In this document: positions 345 to 56,026 of the stretch, piece by piece
Layout of the letters: each line of letters opens with the position of its first letter
How positions within the stretch are numbered: the first letter of the stretch is position 1
Assembly (NCBI GenBank): GCA_028554795.2
Contig: CM068839.1
Location: 10,257,220-10,321,219, forward strand
Direction: 5' to 3'
Length of the DNA: 64,000 nt
Source: Sinohyriopsis cumingii
Taxonomy: Eukaryota; Mollusca; Bivalvia; Unionida; Unionidae
Notes under the pieces: model-generated
What the model was told of the DNA's origin: nothing
What the model saw: only the letters and a program-made list of their open reading frames with translations
Databases searched by the model: none
Translations under genes and position numbers: made by a program

Positions 345-382
345 AGCCCTTTTCAGGGCTACCCAATACTCTAGAAAAGAAA
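345..382 (+). terminator. Histone-type mRNA 3' end after R1 (Z)
   Basis: Stem AGCCCT (345-350), loop TTTC, stem AGGGCT (355-360), then ACCCA and, ten bases further, a purine block GAAAAGA (374-380). This matches the metazoan replication-dependent histone stem-loop followed by its U7-pairing downstream element. It lies 28 bases after the R1 stop, the distance usual for histone mRNAs. Confidence 0.85.
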
Positions 383-694
383 TAACTATTAATTTGCCAA
401 TGTGTGTAGGTAGAGTAGTGTGAAAATAAACACTAACTCTTTCTTAAAGAATGTGAGGGTATGAGTTTGTGTGTTTGTGTTTGTAAGTGATAAAATAGGT
501 TGGTGTGGATAGTAGATTAAAATGATGTTAGTTTTTTTGGCTGTTAGAGGTATATATTTTGGGTTAGATTGGATTGCTTTGCGTATGTGGATAGTCTATT
601 GAAGTGATTTATAAAAATTTTAAAATATTGATGGGTAGCATAAAAAAGTGAGTGAGTGTTTCTTTTAGGTCCGCGCGTTGTTGTTTTATTTTTT

Positions 695-770
695 GTTCAT
701 GATCTAGGTAAGATCAATTTTATGTTATTAGGGGATGTTTTCCATCACGTCCGCGCTTTCAGTATAAATT
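695..770 (+). promoter_or_regulatory. R2 promoter cassette with TATA box (Z)
   Basis: The segment holds the motif TCATGATCTAGGTAAGATC, then GGGGATGTTTTCCATCACG followed by TCCGCGC, then a TATA box TATAAATT (763-770) about 50 bases before the R2 start. The same two motifs in the same order recur before the R2 and R3 genes of all three elements, so they are shared promoter elements of the terminal genes. Confidence 0.6.
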
Positions 771-820
771 GAAACTCGTTCGGCAGTCCAGCTACCCATG
801 TTGATTGATCAACAGTAAAA

Positions 821-1177
821 ATGAGCAGAAGACTGACTAAATTGATGGAACTTCAGATGCATCTGGAGTATGCCAGATACCTACTGAACGAGCTGACTGC
901 GGAGGCCCTTGTGGAAGAAGTGAGAATAGAACAGGAGGAGAAGGAGAGAAAAATGAAAGAAGAGAATGAAAGAAAGAGAGCTGAACCACAATCACAACAA
1001 AGACAAAGACAAAGAAGACAGAGGGAAGAAGAAGTGTTCACTATTCCGCAAACGGAGGAGTGGGATAGTGAAGCCACTCACCCACCGTCTGCTCTTCAAA
1101 CAAGTCATGTGAATTGGACTAATGATTGGAGTAGACGTTGTGTCTGTGGTGCCAGACCCGGAAGGTGCCACCATTAA
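821..1177 (+). CDS. R2 terminal gene, element Z
   Basis: The 118-residue product has a helical N-terminal part (about residues 1-40, leucine-rich), a highly charged Glu/Lys/Arg coiled-coil middle (about 40-75), a conserved acidic stretch ending in WDSEA, and a C-terminal RCVCGARPGRCHH that is identical in all three copies. The cysteines and histidines of that tail could bind zinc. I do not recognise the family. The start is the ATG 51 bases after the TATA box, matching the A and B genes. A histone-type stem-loop starts 28 bases after the stop. Confidence 0.65.
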   Translation: MSRRLTKLMELQMHLEYARYLLNELTAEALVEEVRIEQEEKERKMKEENERKRAEPQSQQRQRQRRQREEEVFTIPQTEEWDSEATHPPSALQTSHVNWTNDWSRRCVCGARPGRCHH

Positions 1178-1205
1178 CCAGGGGTCTCTGAAGTTTAAAA
1201 AAAAC

Positions 1206-1245
1206 AGCCCTTTTCAGGGCTACCCAATACTCAAGAAAAGAAATA
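1206..1245 (+). terminator. Histone-type mRNA 3' end after R2 (Z)
   Basis: Stem AGCCCT/AGGGCT with loop TTTC (1206-1221), then ACCCA and AAGAAAAGAAAT about ten bases on. Same layout as after R1. Confidence 0.85.
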
Positions 1246-1450
1246 ACCATCAATTTGCCAATGTGTAGGTAGAGTAGTGTGAATATAAACACTAACTCTT
1301 TTATAAAGAATGTGAGGGTATGAGTTTGTGTGTTAGTGTTAGTAAGAGTAAAGGTATGTTTGTGAGAATAGTAGATTATGGGTTTCTTTATTGTTTCTTA
1401 GCAAATGTGAAGAGTATAGTTTGGGTTATATTATATGAAATGAAAAAGTA

Positions 1451-1559
1451 GGGGGATGTTTTCCTTCACGTCCGCGCGTTGTTTGGTCATGATCTAGGTA
1501 AGATCCATTGTATGTTTTTAGGGGGATGTTTTCCTTCACGTACGCGCTTTAAGTATAAG
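1451..1559 (+). promoter_or_regulatory. R3 promoter with duplicated cassette (Z)
   Basis: The motif GATGTTTTCCTTCACGTCCG occurs at 1454 and, with one change (ACGTACG), at 1524. Between them is TCATGATCTAGGTAAGATC. A TATA-like TATAAG (1554-1559) follows, about 40 bases before the R3 start. Confidence 0.55.
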
Positions 1560-1599
1560 AACCCACAGTATTCGTCGTTCAAACCATTCTACATAGAAG

Positions 1600-1971
1600 A
1601 TGGCTTCAAACCACCTGGATAAGTTTCAATCATTGCAAGACGTCCTTGACAATTTGGGCATGATAGAACAAATGCTCGTACGACTCGTTGAAGACCACTA
1701 TTCTTATAGTCCGCATAGAGTAAAAATGGAAATTAACAACTTAAGAAAAGCAAAGGACATGATTAGTGGTGTGATGAAGGAAATAAAGGAGGAGAAGGAG
1801 GATGAAGAGGAAAAGATAAGAATAAGAACATGGAACGAAAAAATTGAAAAAGAAGAAGAAAATGAGAAGAGGAAGAAAGAAGAGAAGAAAGAAGAAGAGG
1901 AGGAGAAAAAAAAGAAGAGAAAGAGTGTTGGAGATAAAATAAGAAGTTGGTGGAGGAAAAGGAGAAATTAG
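1600..1971 (+). CDS. R3 terminal gene, element Z
   Basis: The 123-residue product begins MASNHLDK, has a helical module of about 50 residues (LQDVLDNLG to SGVMKEIKEE), then a long Glu/Lys coiled coil, and ends in a short basic amphipathic tail rich in Trp and Arg (KIRSWWRKRRN). No family recognised. This is the only R3 copy that reads through to the Trp/Arg tail without a break: A has a frameshift before it and B a stop codon before a similar tail. The tail could bind membrane or nucleic acid; this is inference. Confidence 0.65.
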   Translation: MASNHLDKFQSLQDVLDNLGMIEQMLVRLVEDHYSYSPHRVKMEINNLRKAKDMISGVMKEIKEEKEDEEEKIRIRTWNEKIEKEEENEKRKKEEKKEEEEEKKKKRKSVGDKIRSWWRKRRN

Positions 1972-1996
1972 AAGTAGAAGAAGAAGAAAACCCAAA

Positions 1997-2036
1997 GGCC
2001 CTTTTCAGGGCCAGCCATATTTCTCGAAAAGAGATA
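1997..2036 (+). terminator. Histone-type mRNA 3' end after R3 (Z), at the inner edge of the TIR
   Basis: Flank CCCAAA, stem GGCCCT (1997-2002), loop TTTC, stem AGGGCC (2007-2012), then AGCCA instead of the usual ACCCA, then CGAAAAGAGAT (2025-2035). It starts 25 bases after the R3 stop. The CCAAA flank and the GG/CC closing pairs are the classical animal histone form. Confidence 0.85.
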
Positions 2037-2049
2037 GTCTTTGAATTGC

Positions 2050-2293
2050 CTACCCCTTTTTAAAATTTAAATTTAAATTTAAATTTAAAAAAACTTTTTT
2101 AAAAAAAAAAAAATTCCATGTTAAATTCCCCTTGTACGTATAGTATCCCACGATTTATTCCCATGTTAATTCCCCTTGTACGTAAAGTGTCCCACGATTT
2201 TTCTCCATGTTAAATTTCCATTGTACGTAAAGTGTCCCAAGGGTGTTTTTAATGCTAATTCCCATTGTACGTAAAGTGTCCCCATTCACTACT
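2050..2293 (+). repeat. Right terminal inverted repeat of element Z
   Basis: An A/T-rich spacer is followed by about four units with the frame CCATGTTAA(A)TT(T)CC and the core TTGTACGTAAAGTGTCCCA, ending in CCATTCACTACT. The first unit has a slightly changed core (TACGTATAGTATCCC). The core differs from those of A and B although the surrounding frame is shared. Confidence 0.75.
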
Positions 2294-12768: not shown

Positions 12769-14459
12769 TAAATGAAACTTGGGTAATCCAGCCTCAACAT
12801 GTATGTCCGTTATTTGTAGCATAGCAGATTATATTTATTCTGTTCATATTGTAAAACTATGATTAAGCTTTTATGCAAGTTAGAGATGTATATGATAATA
12901 ATAGGAGGTTGTTTATAATTAGTTGAATAACTATTTGGTTGATTTTAGTTAATATTCGAGAAGAATGGTTCCATGGTGTGCATGGTTTTGAGCGTTGACA
13001 GCCAGTACTTAATTGAAGCCTTGTCTATTTCAATTTACTTTTCTATGCACGGTTACGTAAATGGGTAAAATATTTAGGGTAGAAGGCAGTCTTTAATTCT
13101 ATCAACATGTCCCTTATTAGGCTAACTGTCGTTTAGGACTGGAGTAATCTGAGACAGTGAAGGAGAAATAAGCGATGTTCGATGTCATTTTATCAAGAAT
13201 GGATCGATGTAATCAAAGAAAGGAGTGGAGAAATGTACGACATTAGTTTGCAGGAAGCAGTCAAACATTAAATACAGAGGTTACGTTTTTGTCAAGTCAC
13301 ATTTCAAAGTAAACGACTGTGTCGCATTTTACAACGATAAATTATTTCTTGGAAGGACATATTTATGACGATCAGTTATTTCTTGGAAGGACATTATTGT
13401 AATGGACAAACTATATCCTTCTCTGAGAAAGTCACAGAATAAACAGAAAGAAAAAAGCGCATAGCAATAATAATGTAATCTACGCTATTACCTTAATGAC
13501 CAGCTCATTTACCGACATATAAATGACTTAAGATTGGGAAGCTTGCAAACAATAGGAGTTATATTTTATACGCATATTTAAGAAACAAATAACGCCACCA
13601 GTACAAAAAGGTTAGGAAAAAAATATTGGATCTCTTAGTCATACACAACCGAAGTAAAAATGGCACGAACAAGCAAAGCCTGAAGCCTTAATACATGTTA
13701 TATCAAAGCACCTGTAAGTCGTTCACCAGGTGTTCCAAAATTATACCTGCCTAAAATTGCGCAAACACCTGGTGCATGATGTCAAATATCTGTATGTTTT
13801 GTTTTTACTTCGATACACAATGATTGTTCGCACGATTTCGACTTTAATTTCAAAGCGACCGCTATGATCGAGTCAGCCTGAGGGAGGACTGGATACCAAA
13901 TGATTTGTCTGGTCTCCGTCATCGACGAGGAAATTTAGGAATTTAAAAAAATAAAGAAAAACCGAAGTATCTGCAAAGGTTAATCAGAACACGTAAGGGT
14001 CTCAGGCAGAAGCACACGTGATCTATTACAGTACACGCTAATGGTTACCTTGTTTATCAAATTACATCATGTGCACATCACACACCAGCATAGCATTCCT
14101 TACAGGCGACTTGACTGAGTTGATTTTTGTCTTCTTCATGTTTGTTTGTTTTTATTTTTCATGTACTCTTTTTTTTAACAATTGGAACTTTTGCAGATAT
14201 CTCCATATGGTATCATAATATTTTTGGCGTGGTTCTGTTTTGTCTCGTGCATTTCAGTTTGTGTATGAGTTCTCTGCCATTTTCCTACTATTTCACCCTT
14301 TTAATACGGTATCACTTCATCGAAATATGTCCCAGCATATACACTTTGTGGATTACCACCCTTTGGAAAGATAACATCACTGCCACAATGATGTAAATTT
14401 GGTGGTAAAATGACACCTGGAAGAAAATTGTACACTTTAATAACATCATCACACTGAGT
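12769..14459. other. Host sequence without recognised features
   Basis: AT-rich DNA. The open frame around 14127-14396 is hydrophobic but has no homology I can name and overlaps no other signal. Confidence 0.35.
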
Positions 14460-14760
14460 TCCGGTGGCCTAGTAGTTAGAGCGTCCGCCTCGGATGCGGG
14501 AGGTCGTGGGTTTGATCCCATGCCGAGTCATACCAAAGACTTACAAAAATGGTACTAACAGCTACCTCGCTTGGCGCTTAGCATTACGAGGTTAGGACTG
14601 GTCGGACTGGTGTCAGGATAATGTGATTGGTTGGGACATCATGCTACATGTCTGCGGCGTGATGCCTCAGTGCTAGACATAACCATAAACTGTCACACTG
14701 CAGACATCGTAGCGATATGACTGAAACATTGTTAAAGCTACGTTAGAAATCAAATCACAC
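14460..14760 (+). mobile_element. tRNA-derived SINE, full-length copy
   Basis: The head GGTGGCCTAGTAGTTAGAGC is an A-box-like stretch and GGTCGTGGGTTTGATCCCA a B box, spaced as in a tRNA. The body then has GGTTAGGACTGGTCGG, GGGACATCATGCTACATGT and the end AAATCAAATCACAC. The body recurs without the head at 6841-7003. It is a SINE and not a working tRNA gene because no acceptor stem is formed. Confidence 0.75.
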
Positions 14761-15822: not shown

Positions 15823-16325
15823 AGTAGTGAATGGGGTGAGATTAGCGACAATGGGAATTAGCATTAAAAACACCCCCTGGGTAAGATTAGCGACAATGGA
15901 AATTTAACATTAACCACCCTGGGTAAGATTAGCGACAATGGAAATTTAACATGGGCAAAAAACCCTGGGTAAGATTAGCGACAATGGAATTTAACATTGG
16001 AGAAAGGAAAAAAAGGAAATATCCATTTTAGCGACAAAGGCATTCGAACAATGGAAAAAAATATCGATTCTAGGGACAAAGGCAATTGAACATGGGGAAT
16101 AGAGTTTGGGTCTGTCTAGGGACAAGGGGAATTGAACATGGGAATAGAGTTTGGGTTTGTCTACGGACAAAGGGGAATTGAACATGTTAGAAAAAAAAAC
16201 TACTTTAGGGACAAGGGGAATTGAACATGGGATTTTTTTTTTAAAAAAAATTATAAAAGGGGTAGGCAATCGAAAGGCTATCTCTTTTCGAGAAATATGG
16301 GTGGCCCTGAAAAGGGCCTTTGGGT
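15823..16325 (+). repeat. Left terminal inverted repeat of element A
   Basis: The outer part has units with the core TGGGTAAGATTAGCGACAATGG; inner units have other cores (TCTAGGGACAAAGG, TCTACGGACAAAGG, CTTTAGGGACAAGGGG). The innermost part contains the histone-type stem-loop read on the minus strand. It is the inverted counterpart of about 33615-34157, with one unit gained or lost on each side. Confidence 0.85.
16280..16318 (-). terminator. Histone-type mRNA 3' end of the left minus-strand gene (A), inside the TIR
   Basis: On the minus strand: flank CCCAAA, stem GGCCCT, loop TTTC, stem AGGGCC (16318 down to 16303), ACCCA, then CGAAAAGAGA (about 16289-16280). It lies 25 bases after the stop of the 78-residue gene and is the inverted copy of the signal after R3. 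Confidence 0.88.
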
Positions 16326-16342
16326 TTATGTTAATATTAATA

Positions 16343-16579
16343 TTAACATAGATGGCATCTGTCACATCTTCTTCTTCTTCTTCTTAAACTCCTTCTAACT
16401 GCCGGTCCATACACAAGTACCCTCTTGAGACATCCTTGTCTTTCTATGTAAACTCTCCTCATCCATTGACTAGTATCTGTCCTATCAACAACAGTCCACT
16501 TGGACCGGACATACATGAGCATGTCCGTCCTAAACATCATGGAAGACACAAGGGTGGATGACTCAACTGTGGTCCACAT
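16343..16579 (-). CDS. Left-end small basic protein, element A
   Basis: The 78-residue product is conserved in element B (76 residues): the first 31 residues are identical and the Arg-rich C-terminal end keeps a CxxC-xxC pattern (CDRCHLC in A, CRRCPLC in B). This pattern of conservation and the flanking signals argue that it is a real gene. It has its own TATA box on the minus strand and ends in a histone-type stem-loop 25 bases after the stop. The basic Cys-containing tail suggests nucleic-acid or zinc binding; the family is unknown to me. Confidence 0.6.
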   Translation of the reverse strand: MWTTVESSTLVSSMMFRTDMLMYVRSKWTVVDRTDTSQWMRRVYIERQGCLKRVLVYGPAVRRSLRRRRRRCDRCHLC

Positions 16580-16623
16580 CTTGAAGCGACGAGAACAAGT
16601 GAATCAATGCACTGAACTGCGCT

Positions 16624-16631
16624 TATTTATA
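16624..16631 (-). promoter_or_regulatory. TATA box of the left minus-strand gene (A)
   Basis: TATAAATA on the minus strand, 45 bases before the ATG; conserved in B at 36589-36596. Confidence 0.6.
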
Positions 16632-16668
16632 GGTACAGGAAGGATTGAAACGGATTGAGTTCATTCAC

Positions 16669-16750
16669 CAATCGAAACACGCGTTACAAAATTCAGTCAG
16701 CCCGCATCCAATCCGAAGAGAGCAGTCTGTGACGTCACGTGGTCTATATA
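16669..16750 (+). promoter_or_regulatory. L1 promoter: CCAAT, CRE, E-box and TATA (A)
   Basis: In order: two CCAAT-like boxes (ACCAATCG about 16670, ATCCAATCC about 16709), the CRE palindrome TGACGTCA (16730-16737) overlapping an E-box CACGTG (16736-16741), and TATATA (16745-16750), about 50 bases before the L1 ATG. Element B keeps all of these. CCAAT plus TATA plus a stem-loop 3' end resembles a histone gene layout. Confidence 0.65.
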
Positions 16751-16798
16751 GATTCGTTAGCGCTTGTGTGCAGTCAATCTATGCGACAGTGATTCAAC

Positions 16799-17356: not shown

Positions 17357-17377
17357 ACTCACCCCTTCACCAAAATT

Positions 17378-17416
17378 GGCCCTTTTCAGGGCCACCCACT
17401 TCTCTCGAAAAGAGAT
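17378..17416 (+). terminator. Histone-type mRNA 3' end after L1 (A)
   Basis: Stem GGCCCT (17378-17383), loop TTTC, stem AGGGCC (17388-17393), ACCCA, then CTCTCGAAAAGAGAT. It shows all the histone hallmarks and lies 21 bases after the L1 stop. Confidence 0.88.
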
Positions 17417-18094: not shown

Positions 18095-18150
18095 CGTTGT
18101 GCTCGGTTTGAGAGTGAAATGAATAGTGAAAGGACAAGACACACACCCTT

Positions 18151-18183: not shown

Positions 18184-18229
18184 AGTCTATGGTGTTTAAA
18201 CTTGAGTCATTTGACGTTTTGCACTCAAG

Positions 18230-22269: not shown

Positions 22270-22284
22270 CCACCCACCAGAAGG

Positions 22285-23961: not shown

Positions 23962-23981
23962 TTTCACTCCACAAAAAAATC

Positions 23982-38854: not shown

Positions 38855-41800
38855 CGCGAGCCATCGTGGTGGGACGAACGTATGCCAACAAGAATGACAC
38901 GACAGAATGGAAAAGAGCCTGGAAAATTATTCAACGATCGGACCGAGCCAAACAACGAAGTGAAGCAGAACTCCTGTTACAACAAGCCGGACTGTCCAAA
39001 GACACACCCTGCGGCATTCCTGAAATGCAAAAATTGCAAGATGTCCTAGCTCCACTCTACACCTTGAAAGTGCACCCTCAAGAAGTGCGTTGGCCTCTGT
39101 TGTTTCGAGGCCAAGACTTTAAGGACGGAAAATACATTCATGTCTATTATCACGATGACCATTTCGATACCATTACCAGTATCACTGCATTCCTGGGATA
39201 CGGTTATTACTGTGAGCAATGTGACTATGGTTATAATAATCGAGAGCAACACAAACATTGCGGATGGAAATGCTCAGGATGTTTAGCCTCTCCACCCTGT
39301 CTGAGCGAAGGACAAGAAAGAGTACATTGTCCTGCTTGTCTGCACACGTTTGTCAGCCCTGCCTGTTACCAACAACATCTGAAGACGCAAGGTTCACAGC
39401 AGAAATGTGCTTGTCAACTGCTGAGATTGTGCCCTACGTGTGGACAAGGCATACGTACCAATAATGCCAAGACACAAGTATGTTCAGGAAAGAAAAAATG
39501 TCACATTTGTCACCACATCGTGGACTTGGAACACCAATGCTACGTGCAAAAATACCAACCCCCACCAGAGAAAGAGGACGGTCACAAGAAGAAAGGCAAT
39601 TTCATCTTTTTCGATTTCGAATGCATGCAAGAGACCGGCATTCACATTCCTAATTTCTGCATGGCTCATCGAGCGTGCGAGAAGTGCATTCAGGAACCTA
39701 TCTTCAGTCATTGCCCTCACTGCATTAAGATTCCCGGAGGACTTGAAAAAATCTTTCGAGGACCGAACACGTTAGCCGATTTTGCCAAATGGGTCTTAGA
39801 CCCCATCGACAAGACGTGGAGCCAAGAGGACATCGAATGTTATGGAGATTGTCATCGTCATGCCACGGTGATGGTTCAGAATTTCTCCGGACACGATGGA
39901 CAGTTTCTTTTGACATACTATACGGAACAAGGCACCGAGCGTCCTAAAGTCACTTTGAACGGAGCCAAAATCATTTTCATGCAAGTGGGACAAGTACAGT
40001 TTAAAGATTCGATGAGTTACTTGGCCATGCCTTTGAGCCGAATGCCTAAAACGTTTGGAATAACAGAAATGGCTAAAGGGTACTTTCCACACTTTTTCAA
40101 TACGGAAGCCAATCAACACGCCGTTCTACCCCATTTACCTGAGGCTCACTATTACGACCCCCACAACATGCGTACCGAACAACGAGAAGCTTTCTACGCT
40201 TGGTACCAGGCTCACGCCTCCGACCCTTTCGACTTTCAGGAAGAAATGTTAAAGTATTGTCGTTCCGACGTGGACATTTTACGACGTTGCTGTGGAGAAT
40301 TTCGAGAACTGTTCATGGAACACGGAGGGGTCGATCCTTTGAAAGAAGCTTGCACCATTGCCAAAGCGTGTTCCTTAGTGTACCGCCAACGATTCATGCC
40401 TGAAAACACCGTGGCTGTCATCAGTCCTCAAACGACCAACTATGTCAAACGTCAATACTCGGTCAAAGCCGTACGCTGGTTACATTACTTGTGCGAAAAG
40501 GAAGACAAGTGGATTCAGGATGCCCGCAACGGAGGGGGCGAAAAGACCATTGGAACGCATTCGGTCGATGGCTGGGATTTAGAAAACCCCAAGATCGTGT
40601 ACGAGTTTAACGGTTGCTTATTTCACGGATGTCCCGTCTGTTATCCTGACCGTGGCACTAAAAATCAGTTTTTACAACGAACCATGGAAGACTTGTACCA
40701 GGCCACTTGTAAGCGACGCCTAAAGTTAGAAGAGGAAGGATATCAAGTGGTGGAAATGTGGGAACACGAGTACGATCACCGTTTGAAAACCGATCCCGAG
40801 TTTAAACGCCTCGTGGAAAGTTACCAGTTCATGGACCCGCTGAACCCGAGGGATAGTTTGTACGGAGGAAGGACCAATGCCACCTGTTTGCTGTACCAAG
40901 CCGACGAAGAGAAAGGAGAAGAAATCAAATACTTGGACGTGTGTTCGCTGTATCCTTACGTGTGCAAGTATTGTCGCTTTCCTGTATGGCACCCACAATT
41001 GTTGACGGAACACATCGACCTGAAAAACATTCGACAATTCGAAGGCTTGATCAAGTGCAAAGTTTTGCCTCCCACGAACCTATACCATCCCGTCTTACCT
41101 CACCATTGCCAAGGCAAACTGATGTTTCCTTTGTGCCGTACTTGTGCCGAAACGTGCAACCAAAATCAGCCTTCTCAGCACACCCAGGAGGAACGGGCCT
41201 TGACGGGAACCTGGGTCAGAGTAGAATTGTTCAAAGCTCTGGACATGGGATACCAACTGTTAGAAGTGTACGAAATTTGCCACTTTCCCAAGACACAACA
41301 ATACCACAAGGGTGACCCCACGCAGAAAGGCATTTTCGCCGACTACGTGGATGCCTTTTTGAAACTGAACCAAGAAGCCAGCGGCTATCCTTCCTGGTGT
41401 CACACTCCCGAAGAAAAAACAATTCAAAGGGAAATACTATGAACAAGAAGGCATCACTTAAGATCACATCGAGAAAAACGAAGGCAGGCGATCGTTTGCC
41501 AAAGTGATGTTAAATTGCTTGTGGGGAAAAATGGCACAACGACCCTGTTTACCCAAGACGGAATATTTGACAGAACCTTCCCGCTACTTCCAGATGATTC
41601 AAGACAAAACCAAATACATGAAACACGTGGACGTCGTTCGTGAGGATTTGATCTTGGTCAATTACGAAGAAGATCTGGACTTTGTAGAAGAAGACCCCTT
41701 TGGAAATGTCATCATTGCGGCTTACGTGACAGCTCATGCTCGCTTAAAATTGTACGAAGCTTTAGAACTGTTAGGGGAACGCGTCCTGTACTTTGACACG

Positions 41801-42289
41801 GACAGTTGCATTTACATCCATCACCCGAGTCAACAGCACCCTGACATCGAAGGAGACCGTTTAGGAGCCTGGACAGATGAGCATCCCGACGACAAGATTC
41901 TAAGTTTCGTCAGTGGCGGTCCCAAAAATTACGGCTACGTATACCGGGACAAACAAGGAGAAGTGCACACGAAGTGTAAAGTGAAAGGATTGACTCTGAA
42001 TTATCGTACCAGTCGAGTGGTCAACTTTGGGGTACTGAAAGAAGCCTTGCAGTCTGGAAAAGATCAACACTTTAAAGTGACCACCTATCAACCGAACAAG
42101 ATTGTACGTTTACCCACTCACCACATCGTCAGTCGACCCTTGGAAAAAGTCTATCAAATCGTGTACCAGAAGCGAGTGCGACTCCCCAACCACTTTACTT
42201 TGCCGTATGGACACGTTGGTATTAACATTGGTTGTAAGCGGATAGCCACCCACCAGAAGGATGACTTCGCCACAGCAAGAATCGAGTGA
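38845..42289 (+). pseudogene. POLB: Protein-primed family-B DNA polymerase, element B, broken once near the palm
   Basis: The first 865 codons are open and include the zinc-binding Cys/His region, Exo I FFDFEC, Exo II NFSGHDGQF, Exo III YCRSDVDIL, FNGCLFHGCPVCYP and Pol A DVCSLYP. A two-base loss near 41415 ends the frame at 41442, and the original frame also has a TAA at 41459-41461. The last part from 41504 has Pol B (NCLWGK), Pol C (FDTDSC) and a TLPYG end. A YGH replaces a Tyr-containing motif in Exo II relative to A. Protein-primed replication of the element is the expected role. Confidence 0.93.
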
Positions 42290-42719
42290 GAAACCCGATG
42301 AGAACTCCAAGGTCAAACCCTACCATTTTCCAGTCTTCTTACCTGACTATTGTGATTGTGCCCGTCGATTGGACACGTTTCAGAAATGGCCTACGGATAG
42401 GGAAGGATTACCTTCTTCGCATGTTTTAGCTAGAACAGGACTTGTCTACTTGGGACCTGAGTCAGGATTGGGATATGAAGTACAGTGTTTCGCTTGTGGC
42501 CTGAAGTTACGAATGGATCTATGTATCTACAAAGATTCAGCTATTTTGGAACATACTCGATGGTCTCCGCACTGCCCTTACCTTTCTATGGCCTTTCCAC
42601 CCATGCCATTACGGTAAAATGATGACGGTACCTTACAGACGGTACCTTCCAAAACAAGACATAAAAAACATAAAAAAGGAACGATGTACAAGCTTGAGAC
42701 TGCATTGCGACTAGTATAA
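42261..42719 (+). pseudogene. BIR-domain protein 1, element B, premature TAA
   Basis: The frame matches the A gene but a TAA at 42615-42617 removes the Lys/His-rich tail. The whole BIR domain (CFAC, LEH, C) lies before the stop, so a short functional product is still possible. Its start overlaps the polymerase end by 29 bases. Confidence 0.8.
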
Positions 42720-42777: not shown

Positions 42778-43413
42778 ATGAATACTTTCAGAGAAACACA
42801 AAACAAGTTTAGACAGGCACAATTCAAGTGTGGGGCTTCTGAAGTGGAATGCGATTGTGAGCCTTGCGATGGGTACGATGCTGTACGTTGTGACCTTAGC
42901 GATGCCGTAAAGCATCATGGGAACTTTGTTCTCACTACCCCTATCATGGAAAGTGATGCTGTGCGTGTCAAACCTGAGGGATGCGAAAGCGATGCCGCTC
43001 GTCCTCTTGGACATTTTACTGGGTTTCGTTTTAAAGGGGAATGTTCACCTTCACGTCTACCCCCCTACGAATGTCATCCAGCCCTGAGCAAACTCCTGTC
43101 CATGTCACCCAACCCTCATCGAAACGAACCTGTGAAAGACGAATATTCGTTTCCTGTGCGTTTGTCGGAATACTGCGACTTTGAAAATCGTCTTTAATCG
43201 TTCAAAGGATCATGGCCTAAGTATCTGGGAGGCCCGACCCCCGAAAAATTAGCCAGAGCCGGATTGTTCTACTTGGGCGAAGGAGATAAAGTCAAGTGCT
43301 TCAGATGCGGTGTGTCACTTCACCACTGGGAACCGCAAGATTCGGCCTACGTAGAACATGCTCGATGGTCACCGAATTGTCATTACTTACCCTTAGTGGG
43401 ACCGAGACATTGA
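42778..43413 (+). pseudogene. BIR-domain (IAP-like) protein 2, element B, single stop
   Basis: The 139 codons to the TAA at 43195-43197 give an N-terminal region with Cys-rich and Asp-rich parts. In the same frame after the stop a BIR domain continues with LARAGLFYLG, CFRC, VEH and RWSPNC, here with the usual 16-residue spacing between CxxC and His. So one codon separates this from an open 211-residue frame; no restored protein is given. A keeps only the first 30 codons. Confidence 0.75.
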
Positions 43414-43435
43414 AGTAACTTACCATAATCTGTTT

Positions 43436-43888
43436 ATGGATACTTTACAAGAGAATATTCGCACTTTCCCTGTGGAGTTGAGAGAAAGGATTTACCGAGA
43501 GCTGGTCAAAATACAAGTGAAACGTAAAGAACAATTGCATCCGTTACGTCACCGGTGTTTGAACCACTGGTACCTAAATGCTATACAAGGACTGATTCAG
43601 TTGAAAGCGTTCCATTGGACAGACATTGATCAACGATCCCCTAGTTTTAAAAAGGATTGGTTTGCTATTGATGATTCTATCTACTACATTGTAAACTTAC
43701 TGCATTGAATTCCAGAGGAAGTGTTAACGAATTATCGACATCTTGTACACAATGTCAACTTAGTGAAAGAGGAAACTTCTGAACGAATTGTAATATGTAA
43801 ATTAGTGACTAAACGATTTAAATTCGACACTGAAGTAAAACCATGTCTGTGCAAACGGTACATTTCTTGTGTCAGAAAGAGGATTTAG
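43436..43888 (+). pseudogene. F-box-like gene 1, element B, TGA inside
   Basis: The start MDTLQENIRTFPVELRERIY carries an LPxELxxxIY-type motif (here FPVEL) like the first helix of an F-box. The frame has a TGA at 43706-43708 and continues to 43888. It is a tandem duplicate of the next gene with nearly the same first 40 residues. F-box proteins recruit targets to ubiquitin ligases; assignment is by motif only. Confidence 0.5.
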
Positions 43889-43900
43889 TATGACCTATTC

Positions 43901-44419
43901 ATGGATACTTTACAGGAGAACATTCGCGCTTTGCCTGTGGAGTTGAGAGAAAGGATTTACCGAGAGCTGGTCAAAATACAAGTCAAACGTAAAGAACAGT
44001 TGCATCCGTTACGTCACCAGATTTTTAACCACTGGTACCTGAATGGTATAAAAGAACTGATTCGTCAGAAATTGTTTCAGTGGCCAGACCTTGTTCAATA
44101 CTTCCAAGCCCGCGATGATCCACGTGTTGATCATTTTGGTTACTTCGAGATTCACCTAGTACAACACATTGAGGAAGACAAGGTAAAGGATTACCGACAT
44201 ATTTTACGTGGAATCTACTTAGCGGAAGAGGAAACTTCTAAACGAAGTCTGACGTTTCGGTTACAGTATGCAACATTTAAATTCCCCACTGCAGAACGAA
44301 GATCTCTGGCTAGAAAGTACGTGTATTGTTTCCGAAACAAAGAGACTATAAAAACAGGCTACCATGCCACGACTTTTATCGCATTTAGTCCAACAGATTC
44401 CGTGGTAGGAACTCAATGA
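43901..44419 (+). CDS. F-box-like gene 2, element B
   Basis: The 172-residue product starts MDTLQENIRALPVELRERIY and continues with a helical, basic segment (KIQVKRKEQLHPLRH) and HWYLNGIKELIRQKLFQW. No second domain is recognised. Only the N-terminal helix resembles an F-box. It lies 12 bases after the damaged duplicate. A lacks the whole region. Confidence 0.5.
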   Translation: MDTLQENIRALPVELRERIYRELVKIQVKRKEQLHPLRHQIFNHWYLNGIKELIRQKLFQWPDLVQYFQARDDPRVDHFGYFEIHLVQHIEEDKVKDYRHILRGIYLAEEETSKRSLTFRLQYATFKFPTAERRSLARKYVYCFRNKETIKTGYHATTFIAFSPTDSVVGTQ

Positions 44420-44691
44420 CCATATTCAAACCGTGGATCATTACCATCGATTATTACAAGAACTGTATCCACTCAATTTGGGTCGACAAGTGGTGTGTGT
44501 CTTAGTGACTTGTTTTCTAGGATTTCGTTTACCAGCCGATTCCTTGTGGACTCTTTACGATCAGTACTTGCCACCTCAATGGCCTTAAATGGTCACGAAA
44601 GACTCCTTTTGCTCATAGCCTTGCGGTTTCATCTGGATACTTCTCGACCTCTACGGGAAAAAAGATTCGTCAACTTTTAGCTACCCAAGAC
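44420..44691 (+). pseudogene. Degraded coding segment, element B
   Basis: Protein-like stretches occur in changing frames, for example DHYHRLLQELYPLNLGRQVV from about 44437 and LWTLYDQYLPPQWP to 44588, separated by stops and shifts. It may be one decayed gene. Family not recognised. Confidence 0.35.
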
Positions 44692-45081
44692 GTGTATGAC
44701 GATGTGTGTGTAGCTTGTGACTTACACCCCATTGGACAGATATCCGTGCCTGGAAAGAATGGGATTTTGAGGCTTGGACCCAAGAAGTGGCCCAGTATGC
44801 ACGAGAGTTGTTCAAGGAAAAAAGTCACTTTTCAACCTGTGTTAGTGACGGTGCCAGAAGAACCCGTCACCCAGGACAGGACTGTCGTGGACAGGCCTGA
44901 AAGACCCTTTCGGGAGGACACTTGTGTGACCTTACCCCCTATAGAACTGGTCAGAACTTTACCCAAAACATGTTGTACAGACACTTGTTTTTATTCCACG
45001 TTAATGATTTTCATGTGCCTTTTATCGTTGTACTTAAGCCTTTGGCTTTTATGTATTTTTGTCTTTCGTATTCATGTTTAA
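44692..45081 (+). CDS. Possible tail-anchored membrane protein, element B
   Basis: The 129-residue frame has a Pro/Val-rich polar part (PVLVTVPEEPVTQD) and a C-terminal hydrophobic helix (FYSTLMIFMCLLSLYLSLWL). The first about 45 residues may belong to another decayed frame, since a second frame there is also protein-like, so the true start is uncertain. The A copy has only the 3' part. Confidence 0.4.
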   Translation: MYDDVCVACDLHPIGQISVPGKNGILRLGPKKWPSMHESCSRKKVTFQPVLVTVPEEPVTQDRTVVDRPERPFREDTCVTLPPIELVRTLPKTCCTDTCFYSTLMIFMCLLSLYLSLWLLCIFVFRIHV

Positions 45082-45164: not shown

Positions 45165-45893
45165 ATGGCTACTTCTGCTGTCTCTACTCCCTCTTCTTCC
45201 ACTGTCAAAGTCATCGACGCACACTTAGATCGTGCCAGTTTGGAGGCTTTGTATCTTCGCCATCCCTTTAACATGCTCATTGCTGGACCTAGCGGTTCAG
45301 GCAAAACCGAATTCGTCAAACGTTTGATTGAACATAAACATCATTTGATCGATCGTCCACCTCAACGCATCGTGTGGTGTTACAAAGAGTGGCAATCGGC
45401 GTACAGCCTCTTGAGAGAAAGTCAAGGCGATTCCATCGTGTTTGTGGAAGGCATTCCTAAAGAAAACGATGGCATCGTCTCTGACTCCCGTCAAACCCAT
45501 TTGGTCATTTTTGACGACATGTTAGGAGAAGACGAAGAAGAAATTATACTGTGGTTCACGCGCAAAGGGCATCACCGTAATGCCAGTGTCGTTTACATCA
45601 CCCAAAATTTGTTTCAACAAAGCAAAGCCCATCGCACCATCAGTCTCAATGCGCATTACGTGGTCTTGTTTAAATGCCCTCGAGATAAATCGCAAGTGCA
45701 AGTCTTAGCCAAACAGTTAGGAACGCCTTGGCTGACTCAGGCGTACGACGATGCCACTCAAACTCCACACGCCTATTTACTCGTCGATTTGAAACCTACG
45801 ACCCCCGAGGATTTGCGATTTCGTACCCACTTGTTTCACCACTGGTGCCAAGACGGAGGGCCTGTCCTGTACACGTCTCCGTCCTCGACTTAA
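45165..45893 (+). CDS. ATP: Packaging-type ATPase (FtsK/HerA-A32 class), element B
   Basis: The 242-residue product is open. Walker A GPSGSGKTEFVKRLI lies at about residues 42-56, Walker B LVIFDDMLGE at about 112-121, and VYITQNLFQQ follows at about 143-152. The layout fits the genome-packaging ATPase of Polintons and of large DNA viruses with A32. Between the N-terminal 25 residues and the P-loop there is DRASLEALYLRHPFN. It has its own TATA box and lies upstream of the virion genes. Confidence 0.9.
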   Translation: MATSAVSTPSSSTVKVIDAHLDRASLEALYLRHPFNMLIAGPSGSGKTEFVKRLIEHKHHLIDRPPQRIVWCYKEWQSAYSLLRESQGDSIVFVEGIPKENDGIVSDSRQTHLVIFDDMLGEDEEEIILWFTRKGHHRNASVVYITQNLFQQSKAHRTISLNAHYVVLFKCPRDKSQVQVLAKQLGTPWLTQAYDDATQTPHAYLLVDLKPTTPEDLRFRTHLFHHWCQDGGPVLYTSPSST

Positions 45894-48055: not shown

Positions 48056-49156
48056 ATGGAAAAAGTCTTAGCCAGCATTTACTACGATCCCTCGCATCCT
48101 GCAGGTTACGCAGGAGTTCAAAAATTGTATCGTGCTGCCAAAATGCGACTCCGTTTACCTCAAGTGCAACGATGGTTACAAGAACAAGCTACCTACACTT
48201 TACACAAACCCATTCGACGCAAGTTTGCCAGAAGTCGCACCCGAGTGGAAGGCATCGATCATCAATGGCAAGCCGATTTAGCCGATGTCTCTCATTTGGC
48301 CAGCTACAATCGCGGCTACAAATATTTGTTTTGTGTCATTGACGTCTTTTCCAAATTTGCCTGGGTCGTACCCTTGACTTCCAAATCGAGCAGCGAGTTA
48401 GTGCGAGCCCTGCAACGGGTCTTGAAACAAAGCGGTCGTCTCTCTCTTCGATGGCAAACGGACAAAGGTACCGAATTTCTGAACCAAACTTTCCAAAAAG
48501 AATTAAAGAAACGTGACATTCATTCTTTTACCACCGAGAATCCCGAAACCAAAGCCAGCATCGTGGAACGTTTTCAACGCACTTTGAAAGAACGCATGTG
48601 GAAATATTTTACGCATCACCACACTCTGAAGTACATCGACATCTTACCGCACCTGGTGCAAGCGTACAACCAATCTTACCATCGAAGCATCGGACGTGCC
48701 CCGCAAGAAGTGACTCCCGACAACGAAGTGTTGGTGTTTGAGCGCCTGTTTGGTACGTCCCCGACGAGGGCTGTCCCCAAGAAAAGTGGAGAGTTGACCG
48801 TAGGAGATTGGGTGCGCATTGGCAAAACCAAACGCACTTTCGACAAAGGTTACTTACCTAACTGGACGACCGAATTGTTTCGTGTCACTGGACGAGTGCA
48901 TGGCCGTCATCCTGCTGTCTATAAATTGGAAGACATGAACGGAGAAGTGCTCAAAGGAACGTTTTATTTGCCCGAGTTACAACGTGTCACCAAAAAAGAA
49001 GACGACGTGTACGACATCGAAAGCATTCTCGAACGCAGAACCCGTAAAGTGGGCAAACGACATGTCAAAGAAGTCAAAGTACGTTGGAAAGGATATCCAC
49101 CCAGTTTTGATTCTTGGATCGATGCTTCGCAAGTCATCGACTATAAAAAGAAGTGA
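48056..49156 (+). CDS. INT: Retroviral-type integrase with chromodomain, element B
   Basis: The 366-residue product is open. The DDE core has Asp in HQWQADLADV (about residue 75), Asp in QTDKGTEFL (about 138) and Glu in ASIVERFQRTLKERM (about 172), with 35 residues between the last two. An SH3-like segment (VGDWVRIGKTKRTFDKGY) and a C-terminal chromodomain (YDIESILERR, VRWKGYPPSFDSWI) follow. The N-terminal zinc-binding HHCC part of retroviral integrase is not evident. The chromodomain may guide insertion to modified histones. It would make the 6-bp duplication seen. Confidence 0.93.
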   Translation: MEKVLASIYYDPSHPAGYAGVQKLYRAAKMRLRLPQVQRWLQEQATYTLHKPIRRKFARSRTRVEGIDHQWQADLADVSHLASYNRGYKYLFCVIDVFSKFAWVVPLTSKSSSELVRALQRVLKQSGRLSLRWQTDKGTEFLNQTFQKELKKRDIHSFTTENPETKASIVERFQRTLKERMWKYFTHHHTLKYIDILPHLVQAYNQSYHRSIGRAPQEVTPDNEVLVFERLFGTSPTRAVPKKSGELTVGDWVRIGKTKRTFDKGYLPNWTTELFRVTGRVHGRHPAVYKLEDMNGEVLKGTFYLPELQRVTKKEDDVYDIESILERRTRKVGKRHVKEVKVRWKGYPPSFDSWIDASQVIDYKKK

Positions 49157-52770: not shown

Positions 52771-53331
52771 ATGGATACCTGGGAACTTTATTACCTTTTG
52801 AACCACAGCTCGTACACGGCTTCTTGGAATCCTGTCGTCTGTGCTAAAGATGAACTCCCTCATCGCAAACCTCAAGACCATCAAGCTTATGTGATCAACA
52901 CGGACGACAGTCATCTCCCAGGAACCCACTGGGTAGCCGTCTACTTTCCTCAAGAAGGATGTGTGGAATATTTCGATTCGTACGGATTGCCCCCTTTGGA
53001 AGACAATATCATCGACTTTATGAGAAGAAATGCTCAGACCACCCGATTCAATAATGTGAAATTACAAGGCACAGATTCCTTGGTGTGCGGACAGTATTGT
53101 GTGTATTTTCTGCATCATCGCAGCCTGGGCTATTCCTTAGAACATTTAGTGACTCATTTTGATCCTCGTTCTTCTTCAAGAAACGATGTGAAAGTAGATC
53201 GATGGTTTTGTGACCATTATGCTTATCTTTTGTCTCAAGCTAGGAAACGTAGTGTCCATCAATGGCCTAATGACTTCCATCAGTGGAAATCACAATTTCA
53301 TTCACAACGTTGTCAACCCTGTTTAAAGTAG
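52771..53331 (+). CDS. PRO: Adenain-type cysteine protease, element B
   Basis: The 186-residue product has the catalytic His in GTHWVAVYF (about residue 53), an acidic residue in VEYFDSYG (about 69), Gln in KLQGTDS and Cys in VCGQYCVYFL (about 113), as in adenovirus maturation proteases and Ulp1-type enzymes. It would process capsid proteins. It follows the previous gene by 13 bases. The region coding for the catalytic part is deleted in A. Confidence 0.9.
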   Translation: MDTWELYYLLNHSSYTASWNPVVCAKDELPHRKPQDHQAYVINTDDSHLPGTHWVAVYFPQEGCVEYFDSYGLPPLEDNIIDFMRRNAQTTRFNNVKLQGTDSLVCGQYCVYFLHHRSLGYSLEHLVTHFDPRSSSRNDVKVDRWFCDHYAYLLSQARKRSVHQWPNDFHQWKSQFHSQRCQPCLK

Positions 53332-53567
53332 AGTGTTAATTGAAAAAAAATGTTTGTCATTAGAAAAAGAGTTTGATGTTATATTGTTGAGTTATTGTTA
53401 AAAATCTTGGAGTTGTTAGTGTTAAGTGATTTTGAATAAGAAATGTTGTGTTTTGAAAAAAAATGCCTTTGTCTTTTGTTTGGCTATAAGAATGTTGATT
53501 CATGCTCTTTGACTTCTTACTATCCCTCTCATGACACTCATTGAACGTTGTGGCTCGAAAACCGTAG

Positions 53568-53605
53568 AGGTATGTTTTCCTTCACGTCCGCGCTTTGACT
53601 TTAAG
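53568..53605 (+). promoter_or_regulatory. R1 promoter cassette (B)
   Basis: TATGTTTTCCTTCACGTCCG followed by CGC and TTTAAG; 55 bases before the R1 ATG. Confidence 0.5.
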
Positions 53606-53659
53606 AACCGGGGTAGTTTCCAGTCTAACCATCCATTGTCGACTCATCCTCCTACGAAG

Positions 53660-54082
53660 ATGTGCTCCAAACTAGCTAAGCTAAACGAAGCCTACGTGAA
53701 TTTGCATAGGGTCAGACACAGTCTGATACCGAAGCCAGAAGAGATAGAGAATGTGAGAATGTTAAAAGTCACTGAAGACCTGATAGAAGAGCTCTTCAGA
53801 GAAGAAGTGAACAGGGAGAAAGAAGAATGGACAGAGAAGTACAGACTTCAGAGACAGCAACAACAGCAACAGCAGCAGCAGCAGCAACCTGAACCTGACA
53901 GAGGCTTTGTCGATTGTCGTATCGACACCAAAGAGTTCTTCTTCTCTTTCCGAAGAAGCAGACCTATCGTCAGAAAGTCTATCCTCAGAGGACGTCGCAT
54001 TCTTAGAAACTTAAAGATTGCCATAGCAAACACAAAAAAACAGCCCTTTTCAGGGCTACCCAATACTCTAGAAAAGAAATAA
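53660..54082 (+). CDS. R1 terminal gene, element B, stop lost
   Basis: The product matches A (shorter polyglutamine run), but a single change turns the normal TAA into TTA. The frame then runs on through the histone-type stem-loop and ends at a TAA at 54080-54082, inside the purine element. If the mRNA is cut after the stem-loop it would have no stop codon. Original stop position: about 54011-54013. Confidence 0.6.
   Translation: MCSKLAKLNEAYVNLHRVRHSLIPKPEEIENVRMLKVTEDLIEELFREEVNREKEEWTEKYRLQRQQQQQQQQQQQPEPDRGFVDCRIDTKEFFFSFRRSRPIVRKSILRGRRILRNLKIAIANTKKQPFSGLPNTLEKK
54042..54080 (+). terminator. Histone-type mRNA 3' end after R1 (B)
   Basis: AGCCCT-TTTC-AGGGCT (54042-54057), ACCCA, then CTAGAAAAGAAAT. 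Confidence 0.85.
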
Positions 54083-54370
54083 CAATCCATTTGCCAATGT
54101 GTGTATGTAGAGTAGTGTGAATATAAACACTAACTCTTTTTTATAGTGTGAGGGTATGTGTTTGTGTACATGATTGTGTGTTTGTAAGTGCTTACGTACG
54201 TTTGTTTGGATAGTAGATTAAGATCATGTTTTTTGCTGTTTGAGGTGTGGGGAGAGTAGATTTGGGGTTTGATTGCTTTGCGTATGTGGATAGCATATTG
54301 AAGTGATCAATGAAAATTTTTAAATTAGTAATGGGTAGTATAAAAAAAGTGAGTGAGTGTTTCTTTTAGG

Positions 54371-54458
54371 TCCGCGCGTTGTTTGGTTATGATCTAGGTA
54401 AGATCAATTTTGTTTTAGGGGAATGTTTTCCATCACGTCCGCGCTTTCAGTATAAATT
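54371..54458 (+). promoter_or_regulatory. R2 promoter cassette with TATA box (B)
   Basis: TCCGCGCGTTG, TTATGATCTAGGTAAGATC, GAATGTTTTCCATCACGTCC and TATAAATT (54451-54458), 52 bases before the ATG. Confidence 0.6.
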
Positions 54459-54510
54459 AAAAATCGTTCGGCAGTCTAGCTACCCTTGTTGATTGATCAA
54501 CACCACCAGA

Positions 54511-54819
54511 ATGAACACCAGACCAGCTAAACTGCTTGAACTTCATGTACACCTGGAATATGCCAGGCGTATAGTGAATGAGCTGGCTGCAGAGGCCATC
54601 GTAGAAGAGGGAAGGATGAAAGAGGAGGAGAGAAGAAACAAAGAAGAGGAGGAGAGAAGAAACAAAGAAGAGGAGAGAGGAAATTTCAGAATCCCAGAGA
54701 CAGAAAATTGGGATTCTGAAGCCACTTATCCCGCCTCTGCTCTCCCCCAAAAAAGAGTGAAAAGAGACTGGGGAAGAAGATGTGTGTGTGGTGCCAGGCC
54801 TGGAAGGTGCCATCATTAA
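54511..54819 (+). CDS. R2 terminal gene, element B
   Basis: 102 residues: LAKLLELHVHLEYARRIVNE-like N-terminal helix, a shorter charged coiled coil (RRNKEEE repeats), FRIPETENWDSEA and the C-terminal RCVCGARPGRCHH. The coiled coil is the main length difference from A and Z. Confidence 0.65.
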   Translation: MNTRPAKLLELHVHLEYARRIVNELAAEAIVEEGRMKEEERRNKEEEERRNKEEERGNFRIPETENWDSEATYPASALPQKRVKRDWGRRCVCGARPGRCHH

Positions 54820-54848
54820 CCAGGTGTCATGAAGTTAAAAAAAAAAAC

Positions 54849-54886
54849 AGCCCTTTTCAGGGCTACCCAATACTCTATAAAAGAAA
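54849..54886 (+). terminator. Histone-type mRNA 3' end after R2 (B)
   Basis: AGCCCT-TTTC-AGGGCT (54849-54864), ACCCA, then CTATAAAAGAAAT. Confidence 0.83.
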
Positions 54887-55212
54887 TAACAATCGACTTG
54901 CCAATGTGTGTATGTAGAGTAGTGTGAATATAAACACTGACTCTTTTTTTACCAAGTGTGAGTGTATGTGTTTGTGTTTGTGTTTGTAAGCGCTCACGTA
55001 CGTTTGTGTGAATAGTAGATTATGGCTTTGTTTATTGTTTCTTAGCGTATGTGGAGAGTATAGTTTGGGTTTTGTAACCGCTCACGTACGATTGTGTGGA
55101 TAGTAGATTATGGATTTCGTTTTAATGATTTGCGTGTGTAAATAGTAGATTTGGGTTTTGTTTATTGCTGGTTCACGTATGTGGATAGTAGATCATATGA
55201 AATGAGAAAAGT

Positions 55213-55318
55213 AGGGGATGTTTTCCTTCACGTCCGCGCGTTGTTTAGTCATGATCTAGGTAAGATCAATTTTGTTTTAGGGGGATGTTTTCCATCACGT
55301 CCGCGCTTTCACTATAAG
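55213..55318 (+). promoter_or_regulatory. R3 promoter with duplicated cassette (B)
   Basis: GATGTTTTCCTTCACGTCCG near 55217 and GATGTTTTCCATCACGTCCG near 55284, with TCATGATCTAGGTAAGATC between, then TATAAG (55313-55318). Confidence 0.6.
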
Positions 55319-55368
55319 AACCCACAAAGTTTGATGTTGGAACCATTCTAAGGAATAACTGAAACAAA

Positions 55369-55965
55369 ATGACTCAAGTATCAGTTTTGTTTAATCTATT
55401 GAGAGACATCTATTTTTGGATAATGGATATAGAATATGTTGTAGGAAGAATAGAAGAGGAATGGAGGCATGGAGATATGAAAGACTTGGTAACCAGTCAA
55501 GTTCAAGGCCTAAAGACAGCAAGAGATATCATAGCAGGGATGATAGAAGAAGAAGTCAATAAGTCAAGAGGCTTCATTAACCCACCTTACTTCAGAGTGG
55601 GAAGTTTGAAGGAAGCACTGGATCATGTCATCCAAGTCCGGTGCTTCCTAGAAAAGATATTGTACTGGACAGAGTGGAGGAATGTAAAATGGGGGTTGGA
55701 CAAGATGAAGAAAGGGGAAGATCTGATGAGAAAAGTAATGGAGGAAGAAGTAGAGAAGATTAAAGAGAGATGGAGGGAAGAAAGAAAAGATGAGGAAAAC
55801 AAAAAGAAAAAGGAAGAGTTTGAGAGGCTTAACAACAATTAGATGAAGATACAGACGAAGTTTAGAGAGTTGGGCCATCCTGACTGGTTACCGGAGTCAG
55901 ATATAAAGAAGAAGAAAGGATTATTAGAAAAGATAAGGGGATGGATGAAGAAGTGGGGGAAATAA
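55369..55965 (+). pseudogene. R3 terminal gene, element B, longer form with two helical modules and a TAG
   Basis: The 157 codons to the TAG at 55840-55842 hold two related helical modules: one around IMDIEYVVGRIEEEW...DIIAGMIEEEV and one around LKEALDHVIQVRCFLEKILY...DLMRKVMEEEV. Z and A have one. After the stop the frame continues to 55965 with a Trp/Lys tail (IRGWMKKWGK) like that of Z. The promoter and 3' end are those of R3, so it occupies the R3 position. Confidence 0.6.
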
Positions 55966-55986
55966 AAGAAGAAGAAGAAAGCCAAG

Positions 55987-56026
55987 GGCCCTTTTCAGGG
56001 CCACCCACATCTCTCGAAAAGAGGTT
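55987..56026 (+). terminator. Histone-type mRNA 3' end after R3 (B), at the inner edge of the TIR
   Basis: GGCCCT-TTTC-AGGGCC (55987-56002), ACCCA, then CTCTCGAAAAGAGGT; 21 bases after the outer stop at 55965. Confidence 0.88.

Follow-up and report, generated by a model that had tools for sequence, protein, structure and literature searches.

In animals, the mRNAs of replication-dependent histones end in a signal of their own, a stem-loop (Rfam model RF00032) followed by a histone downstream element and involving SLBP and the U7 small nuclear ribonucleoprotein (snRNP), and this signal is tied to DNA replication. Polintons, or Mavericks, are marked by inverted terminal repeats with AGT ends and by a 6-base-pair (bp) target duplication. 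We have analyzed a stretch of 64,000 nucleotides (nt) from the freshwater bivalve Sinohyriopsis cumingii (contig CM068839.1, positions 10,257,220 to 10,321,219; hereafter the window), in which three Polintons carry histone-type mRNA 3' ends on five families of short near-terminal genes, here called A to E. A link between animal DNA viruses and histones is already given by Histoid of adomaviruses and tailtomaviruses, a histone-like protein encoded by these viruses (PMC11071296); the difference is that a histone-like protein is encoded there, whereas here only the ending of a histone mRNA is found, on proteins that are not histones. A literature search on Polintons, adintoviruses and histone 3' ends, which covered wider topics in part and left subscription journals mostly outside, returned no description of histone-type ends on such genes.

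Results

An earlier note on this DNA, made from the letters alone, had reported 13 histone-type 3' ends, and all 13 were recovered, at the same positions and on the same strands, by each of three approaches (Table 1). The check with the Rfam covariance model that the note had proposed (cmscan, expectation value [E] up to 1) placed RF00032 at 13 of 13 sites, on the correct strands and nowhere else in the window; five matches exceed the gathering score of 34, seven more score 31.0 to 33.5 bits, and the match at 36250-36295 on the minus strand drops to 20.2 bits because its stem is degraded. A 21-base motif, derived from the 13 sites themselves, gave 13 matches with up to three mismatches, against a mean of 0.01 in shuffled sequence. 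An independent test was provided by a covariance model (R1) built from the 3' ends of the host's H1, H2A, H2B, H3 and H4 genes alone, which, run with filters off, found exactly the 13 sites at E-values of 3.4e-10 to 3.8e-6, the next-best match lying at 0.57; these values are rough by the tool's own statement, and in the underlying alignment the H2A and H1 purine blocks are shifted by one base. All three results reject an origin of the 13 sites by chance.

The individual ends follow one plan. The stem reads GGCCCT or AGCCCT (with one GGCTCT and one damaged copy), the loop is TTTC at every site, as the note had it, and the distance from stem to purine block, given there as 10 to 15 bases, is 13 nt in all 13 cases, the block being GAAAAG in 12 and TAAAAG in B of element 3. 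Every site lies on the sense strand behind a short gene or, in the case of A of element 3, overlaps it. The spacing of about 20 to 45 bases behind the gene that had been proposed stands for 10 of the 13 sites (21 to 42 nt from stop to stem) and fails for two C genes, those of element 2 (69 nt) and element 3 (144 nt), and for the A gene of element 3, whose stop is lost. Two further statements, that no core gene has such an end and that no histone gene is present, were borne out: none of the core genes in the window carries a histone-type end at the sensitivity of R1 with filters off, and Pfam finds no histone domain in 27 distinct open reading frames (ORFs) of the elements.

The host's own histone genes offer a direct comparison. 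In the 2.9-Gb genome a Pfam histone search gave at least 150 matches (150 scored), recurring about every 8.3 kb on many contigs, and in one unit H3, H4, H2B, H2A and H1, named from sequence, share one strand and each match RF00032 at 35.0 to 39.4 bits. Their stems are GGCCCT or GGTCCT, their loops TTTT, TTTC or TTTA, the purine block GAAAAG follows 13 nt after the stem in H3, H4 and H2B and 14 nt after it in H2A and H1, and the stem begins 27 to 38 nt behind the stop. The ends of A to E share with the replication-dependent histone 3' end the 6-bp stem, the 4-nt U-rich loop, mostly the sequence ACCCA, a G-C second stem pair (in 76 of 77 distinct alignment rows), the block at the host's 13-nt spacing and, in the 10 sites named above, the distance from the stop; they differ in standing on non-histone genes of a mobile element and, for families A and B of the window, in an A-U first stem pair. 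On sequence grounds, the reading of the A to E 3' ends as histone-type mRNA 3' ends, which the earlier note had put forward, is strongly supported, since stem, loop, spacing and purine block match those of the host and the stem-loop is kept at 41 of 43 ends in diverged copies.

The number 13 itself carries little of this argument. The sites fall in five gene families, and because A and B share 3' flanks and C and D share terminal repeats, independent origins must be far fewer than 13; the argument rests instead on the host-histone model and on the diverged copies elsewhere in the genome. A genome search with RF00032 gave at least 75 matches (75 scored of 589,472 candidates), of which 48 were classified; since only a fraction of the candidates was scored, the genome counts given here are minimum values. 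One of 14 control genomes (Lactococcus lactis) also matched below the cut-off, so that a lone genome match at an E-value of 0.001 means little. Relatives of B, C, D or E are present in each of the 48 classified loci, and the matched stem-loop always follows a relative of C, D or E, mostly within 50 nt of the expected protein end; relatives of the element 3 type of C stand at 137 to 190 nt, because the query is shorter than the intact copies, and one locus (L058) at 309 nt. Since these 48 sites were picked by the stem-loop itself, the other gene ends in the same loci were counted separately: among these 43 partner ends (20 of E, 12 of B, 10 of D and 1 of C), 41 have the stem-loop (39 at up to three mismatches, 2 at four), with the purine core then present in 38 of the 43. 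Over the 48 loci and three histone loci R1 gave 109 matches, 18 of them in the histone loci. The stem remains paired in 97.8% of alignment cells; its first pair is A-U in 12 of 76 distinct rows, with both sides changed, and three of five covariation measures exceed all 500 shuffles in an alignment that was fitted to the model.

At the B partner ends (12 copies), mean column identity is 0.938 in the stem-loop and 0.944 in the purine block, with 0.669 in the spacer and 0.835 to 0.873 in the flanks. The corresponding values for D (10 copies) are 1.0 in the stem-loop, 0.771 in the spacer and 0.889 in the purine block, with 0.883 and 0.853 in the nearest flanks and 0.783 and 0.65 further out. The median ratio of nonsynonymous to synonymous divergence (dN/dS) is 0.12 for D (26 intact copies, 287 pairs, median dS 1.00), 0.44 for E (15 copies, 85 pairs, dS 0.09), 0.21 for B (6 copies, 15 pairs, dS 0.78) and 0.24 for C (9 copies, 17 pairs, dS 0.45), after removal of copies with a stop in frame or a length out of range (kept: 26 of 31 for D, 15 of 30 for E, 6 of 12 for B and 9 of 18 for C) and of pairs whose dS was not computable or was up to 0.05. 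The proteins are under purifying selection. Nine of the 10 partner D copies are intact, with a median dS of 0.97, and since their stem-loop identity is 1.0, the 16-nt stem-loop has stayed identical in D copies that are separated by nearly one synonymous change per site.

A separate observation concerns the two left-end genes, which lie 220 bp apart. In 14 loci with intact D and E (L002, L003, L045, L047, L049, L054, L059, L061, L066, L068, L069, L073, L080 and L081), median dS is 0.94 for D versus 0.08 for E over 91 pairs, roughly a tenfold gap, which could reflect exchange of the terminal segment between element lineages or homogenization of E.

Histone-type ends are found on five genes of each complete element, D on the minus strand and E on the plus strand as a divergent pair at the left, and A, B and C in tandem on the plus strand at the right; element 1 contributes A, B and C only, which gives 3 + 5 + 5 = 13 sites. 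The proteins of A, B and C appear charged, rich in Glu, Lys and Gln and in low-complexity sequence, and that of D is rich in Arg and Cys. Pfam returned neither a histone match nor any other family above cut-off for A, B, C, D or E, and a structure prediction for D, at a predicted local distance difference test (pLDDT) score of 45, was too poor for fold comparison and was left unused.

The divergent promoter region between D and E measures 209 to 222 bp in 28 of 30 genome pairs, the others having 99 and 229 bp. Scanned for promoter motifs, the 30 regions showed two CCAAT boxes in 28, a cyclic AMP response element (CRE) in 26, an E-side TATA match in 24 and an E-box in 10, with no octamer and no match to the E2F motif used in any of the 30; the host histone unit likewise gave no CRE, octamer, E-box or E2F match, and no specific histone promoter element was seen in the D/E region. 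The layout of D and E may be likened to a divergent histone pair, an arrangement that the histone unit of this host does not have. In seven of eight upstream regions of A, B and C (e.g., 32140-32203), a TATA-like sequence is preceded by a recurring box (about GGATGTTTTCC-TCACGTCCGCGC), which occurs twice before C and is perhaps a common promoter element of the right-end genes.

A poly(A) signal (AATAAA or ATTAAA) occurs within 400 nt of the stem start at 2 of the 13 sites, as AATAAA 80 nt on in A of element 1 and 86 nt on in C of element 3; about 0.12 AATAAA are expected per 400 nt. One AATAAA lies at corresponding places in elements 2 (23157) and 3 (45089), shortly before the ATPase gene, and may end the left group of core genes.

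Table 1. Coordinates of the histone-type 3' ends, the genes they follow, and the surrounding elements in the window
Feature	Element	Positions	Strand	Remarks
3' end of A	1	345-385	+	Stem-loop, ACCCA, purine block; RF00032 31.0 bits; R1 E 3.4e-10
3' end of B	1	1206-1246	+	RF00032 31.3 bits; R1 E 1.5e-9
3' end of C	1	1997-2037	+	AGCCA replaces ACCCA; RF00032 35.6 bits; R1 E 8.8e-9
3' end of D	2	16278-16318	-	Inner edge of left terminal repeat; RF00032 42.5 bits, E 3.2e-9; R1 E 1.2e-9
3' end of E	2	17378-17418	+	RF00032 34.4 bits; R1 E 4.4e-8
3' end of A	2	31725-31765	+	RF00032 31.0 bits; R1 E 3.4e-10
3' end of B	2	32623-32663	+	RF00032 31.0 bits; R1 E 3.4e-10
3' end of C	2	33626-33666	+	Stem with one U-G pair; RF00032 34.7 bits; R1 E 1.9e-7
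3' end of D	3	36250-36290	-	Stem degraded; RF00032 20.2 bits (match 36250-36295); R1 E 3.8e-6
3' end of E	3	37357-37397	+	RF00032 37.1 bits; R1 E 2.6e-9
3' end of A	3	54042-54082	+	RF00032 31.0 bits; R1 E 3.4e-10
3' end of B	3	54849-54889	+	Purine block TAAAAGA; RF00032 33.0 bits; R1 E 9.1e-10
3' end of C	3	55987-56027	+	RF00032 33.5 bits; R1 E 1.9e-8
Gene A	1	1-316	+	Start outside window by alignment
Gene B	1	821-1177	+	
Gene C	1	1600-1971	+	
Gene D	2	16343-16579	-	78 amino acids (aa), Arg-rich, Cys-containing C terminus
Gene E	2	16799-17356	+	185 aa
Gene A	2	31317-31682	+	
Gene B	2	32203-32595	+	
Gene C	2	33224-33556	+	Start set by homology to element 1; longest open frame begins at 33065
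Gene D	3	36314-36544	-	76 aa
Gene E	3	36764-37335	+	Frame interrupted
Gene A	3	53531-54082	+	Stop lost, open frame continues through stem-loop
Gene B	3	54511-54819	+	
Gene C	3	55369-55842	+	Diverged type
Divergent D/E promoter region	2	16580-16798	.	About 220 bp; two TATA-like boxes, CCAAT boxes, CRE
Element 1	1	1-2293	.	Polinton right end, remainder beyond window; aligns with right ends of elements 2 and 3; terminates ...CACTACT at 2293
Element 2	2	15823-34157	.	Complete Polinton, 18,335 bp; termini AGTAGT...ACTACT; target duplication AATGAT on both sides
Element 3	3	35513-56377	.	Complete Polinton, 20,865 bp; starts AGTAGT, ends ACTACT; target duplication ATCGGT on both sides
Type B DNA polymerase (PolB; piece)	3	38845-41442	+	PF03175 E 8.1e-32
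BIR (inhibitor of apoptosis) domain protein	3	42261-42617	+	PF00653 E 1.5e-13
A32-like packaging ATPase	3	45165-45893	+	PF04665 E 1.5e-8
Integrase with chromodomain	3	48056-49156	+	PF00665 and PF00385
Adenovirus-type protease (weak)	3	52771-53331	+	PF00770 E 0.0077, 16.4 bits, under curated cut-off of 21.3

The identity of the elements as Polintons is given by their ends and their core genes. Elements 2 and 3 have inverted terminal repeats with AGT ends and perfect 6-bp target duplications. Domain scans, made mainly on element 3, found there a type B DNA polymerase, a retroviral-type integrase and an FtsK/A32 packaging ATPase. With Polintons and adintoviruses the elements have in common the terminal features and, in element 3, PolB, the chromodomain integrase, the A32-like ATPase and, as a match below the cut-off, a candidate adenovirus-type protease; they differ in that five terminal genes carry histone-type 3' ends. 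Sequence matching gave no capsid match for a 435-aa ORF and others that were searched for a double-jelly-roll major capsid protein, and PolB had no match among solved structures at an E-value of 0.01. Scans of viral contigs with PolB and the integrase gave no relatives. Of two histone-end patterns run against viral contigs, one had no matches and the other hit one phage-like contig, which has no RF00032 match at E-values up to 1 and was taken as chance.

Elements 2 and 3 are 93 to 95% identical over most of the core and 86% identical further right, and a region of about 2 kb with ORFs in element 3 (42869-44827) is missing from element 2. The terminal repeats contain imperfect tandem units of about 42 to 47 bp (15834-16186, 33839-34146, 35524-35698 and 56082-56366). 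Between elements 1 and 2, a tRNA-like RF00005 match (14458-14530; 31.4 bits, E 0.013), which ARAGORN did not call, is perhaps the head of a short interspersed element. A genome search with PolB gave at least 52 matches (52 scored of 42,380 candidates); the 51 outside the window are 92 to 94% identical over about 858 to 861 residues and have open frames of 1,081 to 1,366 aa, with internal stops in five, the window copy having 886 aa. The Polinton family looks abundant and, putatively, recently active. Some PolB matches form oppositely oriented pairs with a separation of about 10 kb and the same or almost the same score (C3:2508777/2519519, C127:873635/884384 and C13:13183581/13193378); these are candidates for inverted duplicates, head-to-head insertions or assembly palindromes.

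Discussion

The Polintons of S. cumingii carry five short near-terminal genes that end in the full histone 3' signal of the host, and we consider it likely that their mRNAs are processed by host SLBP and U7 without poly(A) and translated mainly during replication. The proposal builds on the presence of the signal, which matches that of the host histone genes, on where and in which strand it stands, on its persistence in most of the diverged copies examined and on the purifying selection acting on the proteins. Judged from the letters, the cis parts for SLBP/U7 processing are present, in the host's own form, on a defined gene subset of an abundant element. From these parts, expression could proceed as follows: (i) transcripts of A to E would carry the stem-loop, the cleavage-site sequence and a U7-type purine block at host spacing; (ii) host SLBP would bind the hairpin; (iii) U7 snRNP with CPSF73 would cut after it; (iv) short mRNAs without poly(A) would result; (v) these would accumulate and be translated mainly during DNA replication and decay once replication stops; and (vi) the element would gain early or regulatory proteins when host nucleotides, replication factors and histones are available. 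We infer the confinement to S phase from the known behavior of this signal. A bolder version, on which we are evenly divided, sees in A to E a regulon patterned on the five histone genes of the host, with a divergent pair, a tandem set, TATA-like promoters and the histone processing signal. Its mRNAs would be made in S phase by SLBP and U7, perhaps at histone locus bodies, so that an early program would be locked to replication. In this version the core-gene transcripts, too, may extend as far as the terminal stem-loops, since the sampled core-gene stops are also without nearby poly(A) signals.

Several observations weigh against this proposal. The sites are not independent: the stems of C and D are located in the inverted terminal repeats, at the inner edges, and these repeats can be homogenized, while A and B share their 3' flanks. 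Element 3 has an A without a stop and a D with a damaged stem, and the stem-loop is missing from E in two loci (L046 and L060). Two of the five covariation measures fail to beat the shuffles, being reached by 95 and 479 of the 500, and a single inherited change may account for the A-U first pair. The D purine block is no better kept than its nearest flanks, so that only the D stem stands clearly out, and in E (18 copies) column identity stays between 0.82 and 0.98 along the whole region and does not rise at the stem. Neither AATAAA nor ATTAAA occurs within 400 nt of 13 stops of larger ORFs, a set that includes pieces and frames without an assigned identity, and because of this the missing poly(A) signals do not single out A to E. 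The study covers one host genome, and the copies share ancestry. Two negative searches stand on the same side, though they are uninformative: host U7 snRNA was not found among the 65 scored of 801,960 candidates, with no control genome matched, and a genome search for SLBP gave no credible exon. The best weak SLBP match (E 0.718) does not read as SLBP, nor does the second (E 5.28), and further weak matches lie at 5.55 and 8.49.

The real histone-type ends could serve some use other than S-phase timing, such as the storage of maternal mRNA in oocytes, termination in little space where genes are closely packed, or evasion of surveillance that depends on poly(A), since the match of the signal tells how the RNA is cut and not when it is made. 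A TATA-like sequence close behind the purine blocks of A and B fits this reading, and histone mRNAs of oocytes are also controlled independently of the cell cycle (PMC12803260). The D/E promoters, with CCAAT boxes and a CRE that fit cell-cycle control without proving it, speak for the other side, as does the established tie of the same signal to replication in animals, and we regard such a use as a tentative possibility that deserves some weight. Rather unlikely, in our estimate, is a double fate of the mRNAs, histone-type in S phase and polyadenylated elsewhere, which is known for some human histone genes (PMC9756948); the AATAAA behind A of element 1 and C of element 3 would suit it, whereas the other 11 sites have neither AATAAA nor ATTAAA within 400 nt.

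The remaining explanations concern the origin and nature of the hairpin. Were A to E descended from captured histone genes, the 3' end would have been kept while the proteins changed past recognition; the divergent D/E pair is indeed laid out like a histone gene pair (the host unit itself being one-stranded), but A to E have no Pfam histone match, A, B and C are rich in Glu, Lys and Gln, and we think this descent improbable. Hardly credible, by our reckoning, is a hairpin that acts as a DNA-level feature of the terminal repeats in replication or recombination, its histone likeness arising by descent or chance. The position of the C and D stems at the inner edges of the repeats would agree with it; the stems of A, B and E, however, lie outside the repeats, all are sense-oriented behind genes, and nothing at the DNA level would call for a purine block at 13 nt or for the likeness to host histone ends.

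To conclude, if host processing of the A to E transcripts by SLBP and U7 in S phase is borne out, no other protein-coding mRNAs of animals, apart from those of histones, would be known to be made in this way, and a mobile element or virus would have been shown to use this machinery. The coupling of Polinton expression to host replication would become testable. Poly(A)-selected RNA sequencing would miss genes of the A to E type, and their expression may have gone unnoticed.

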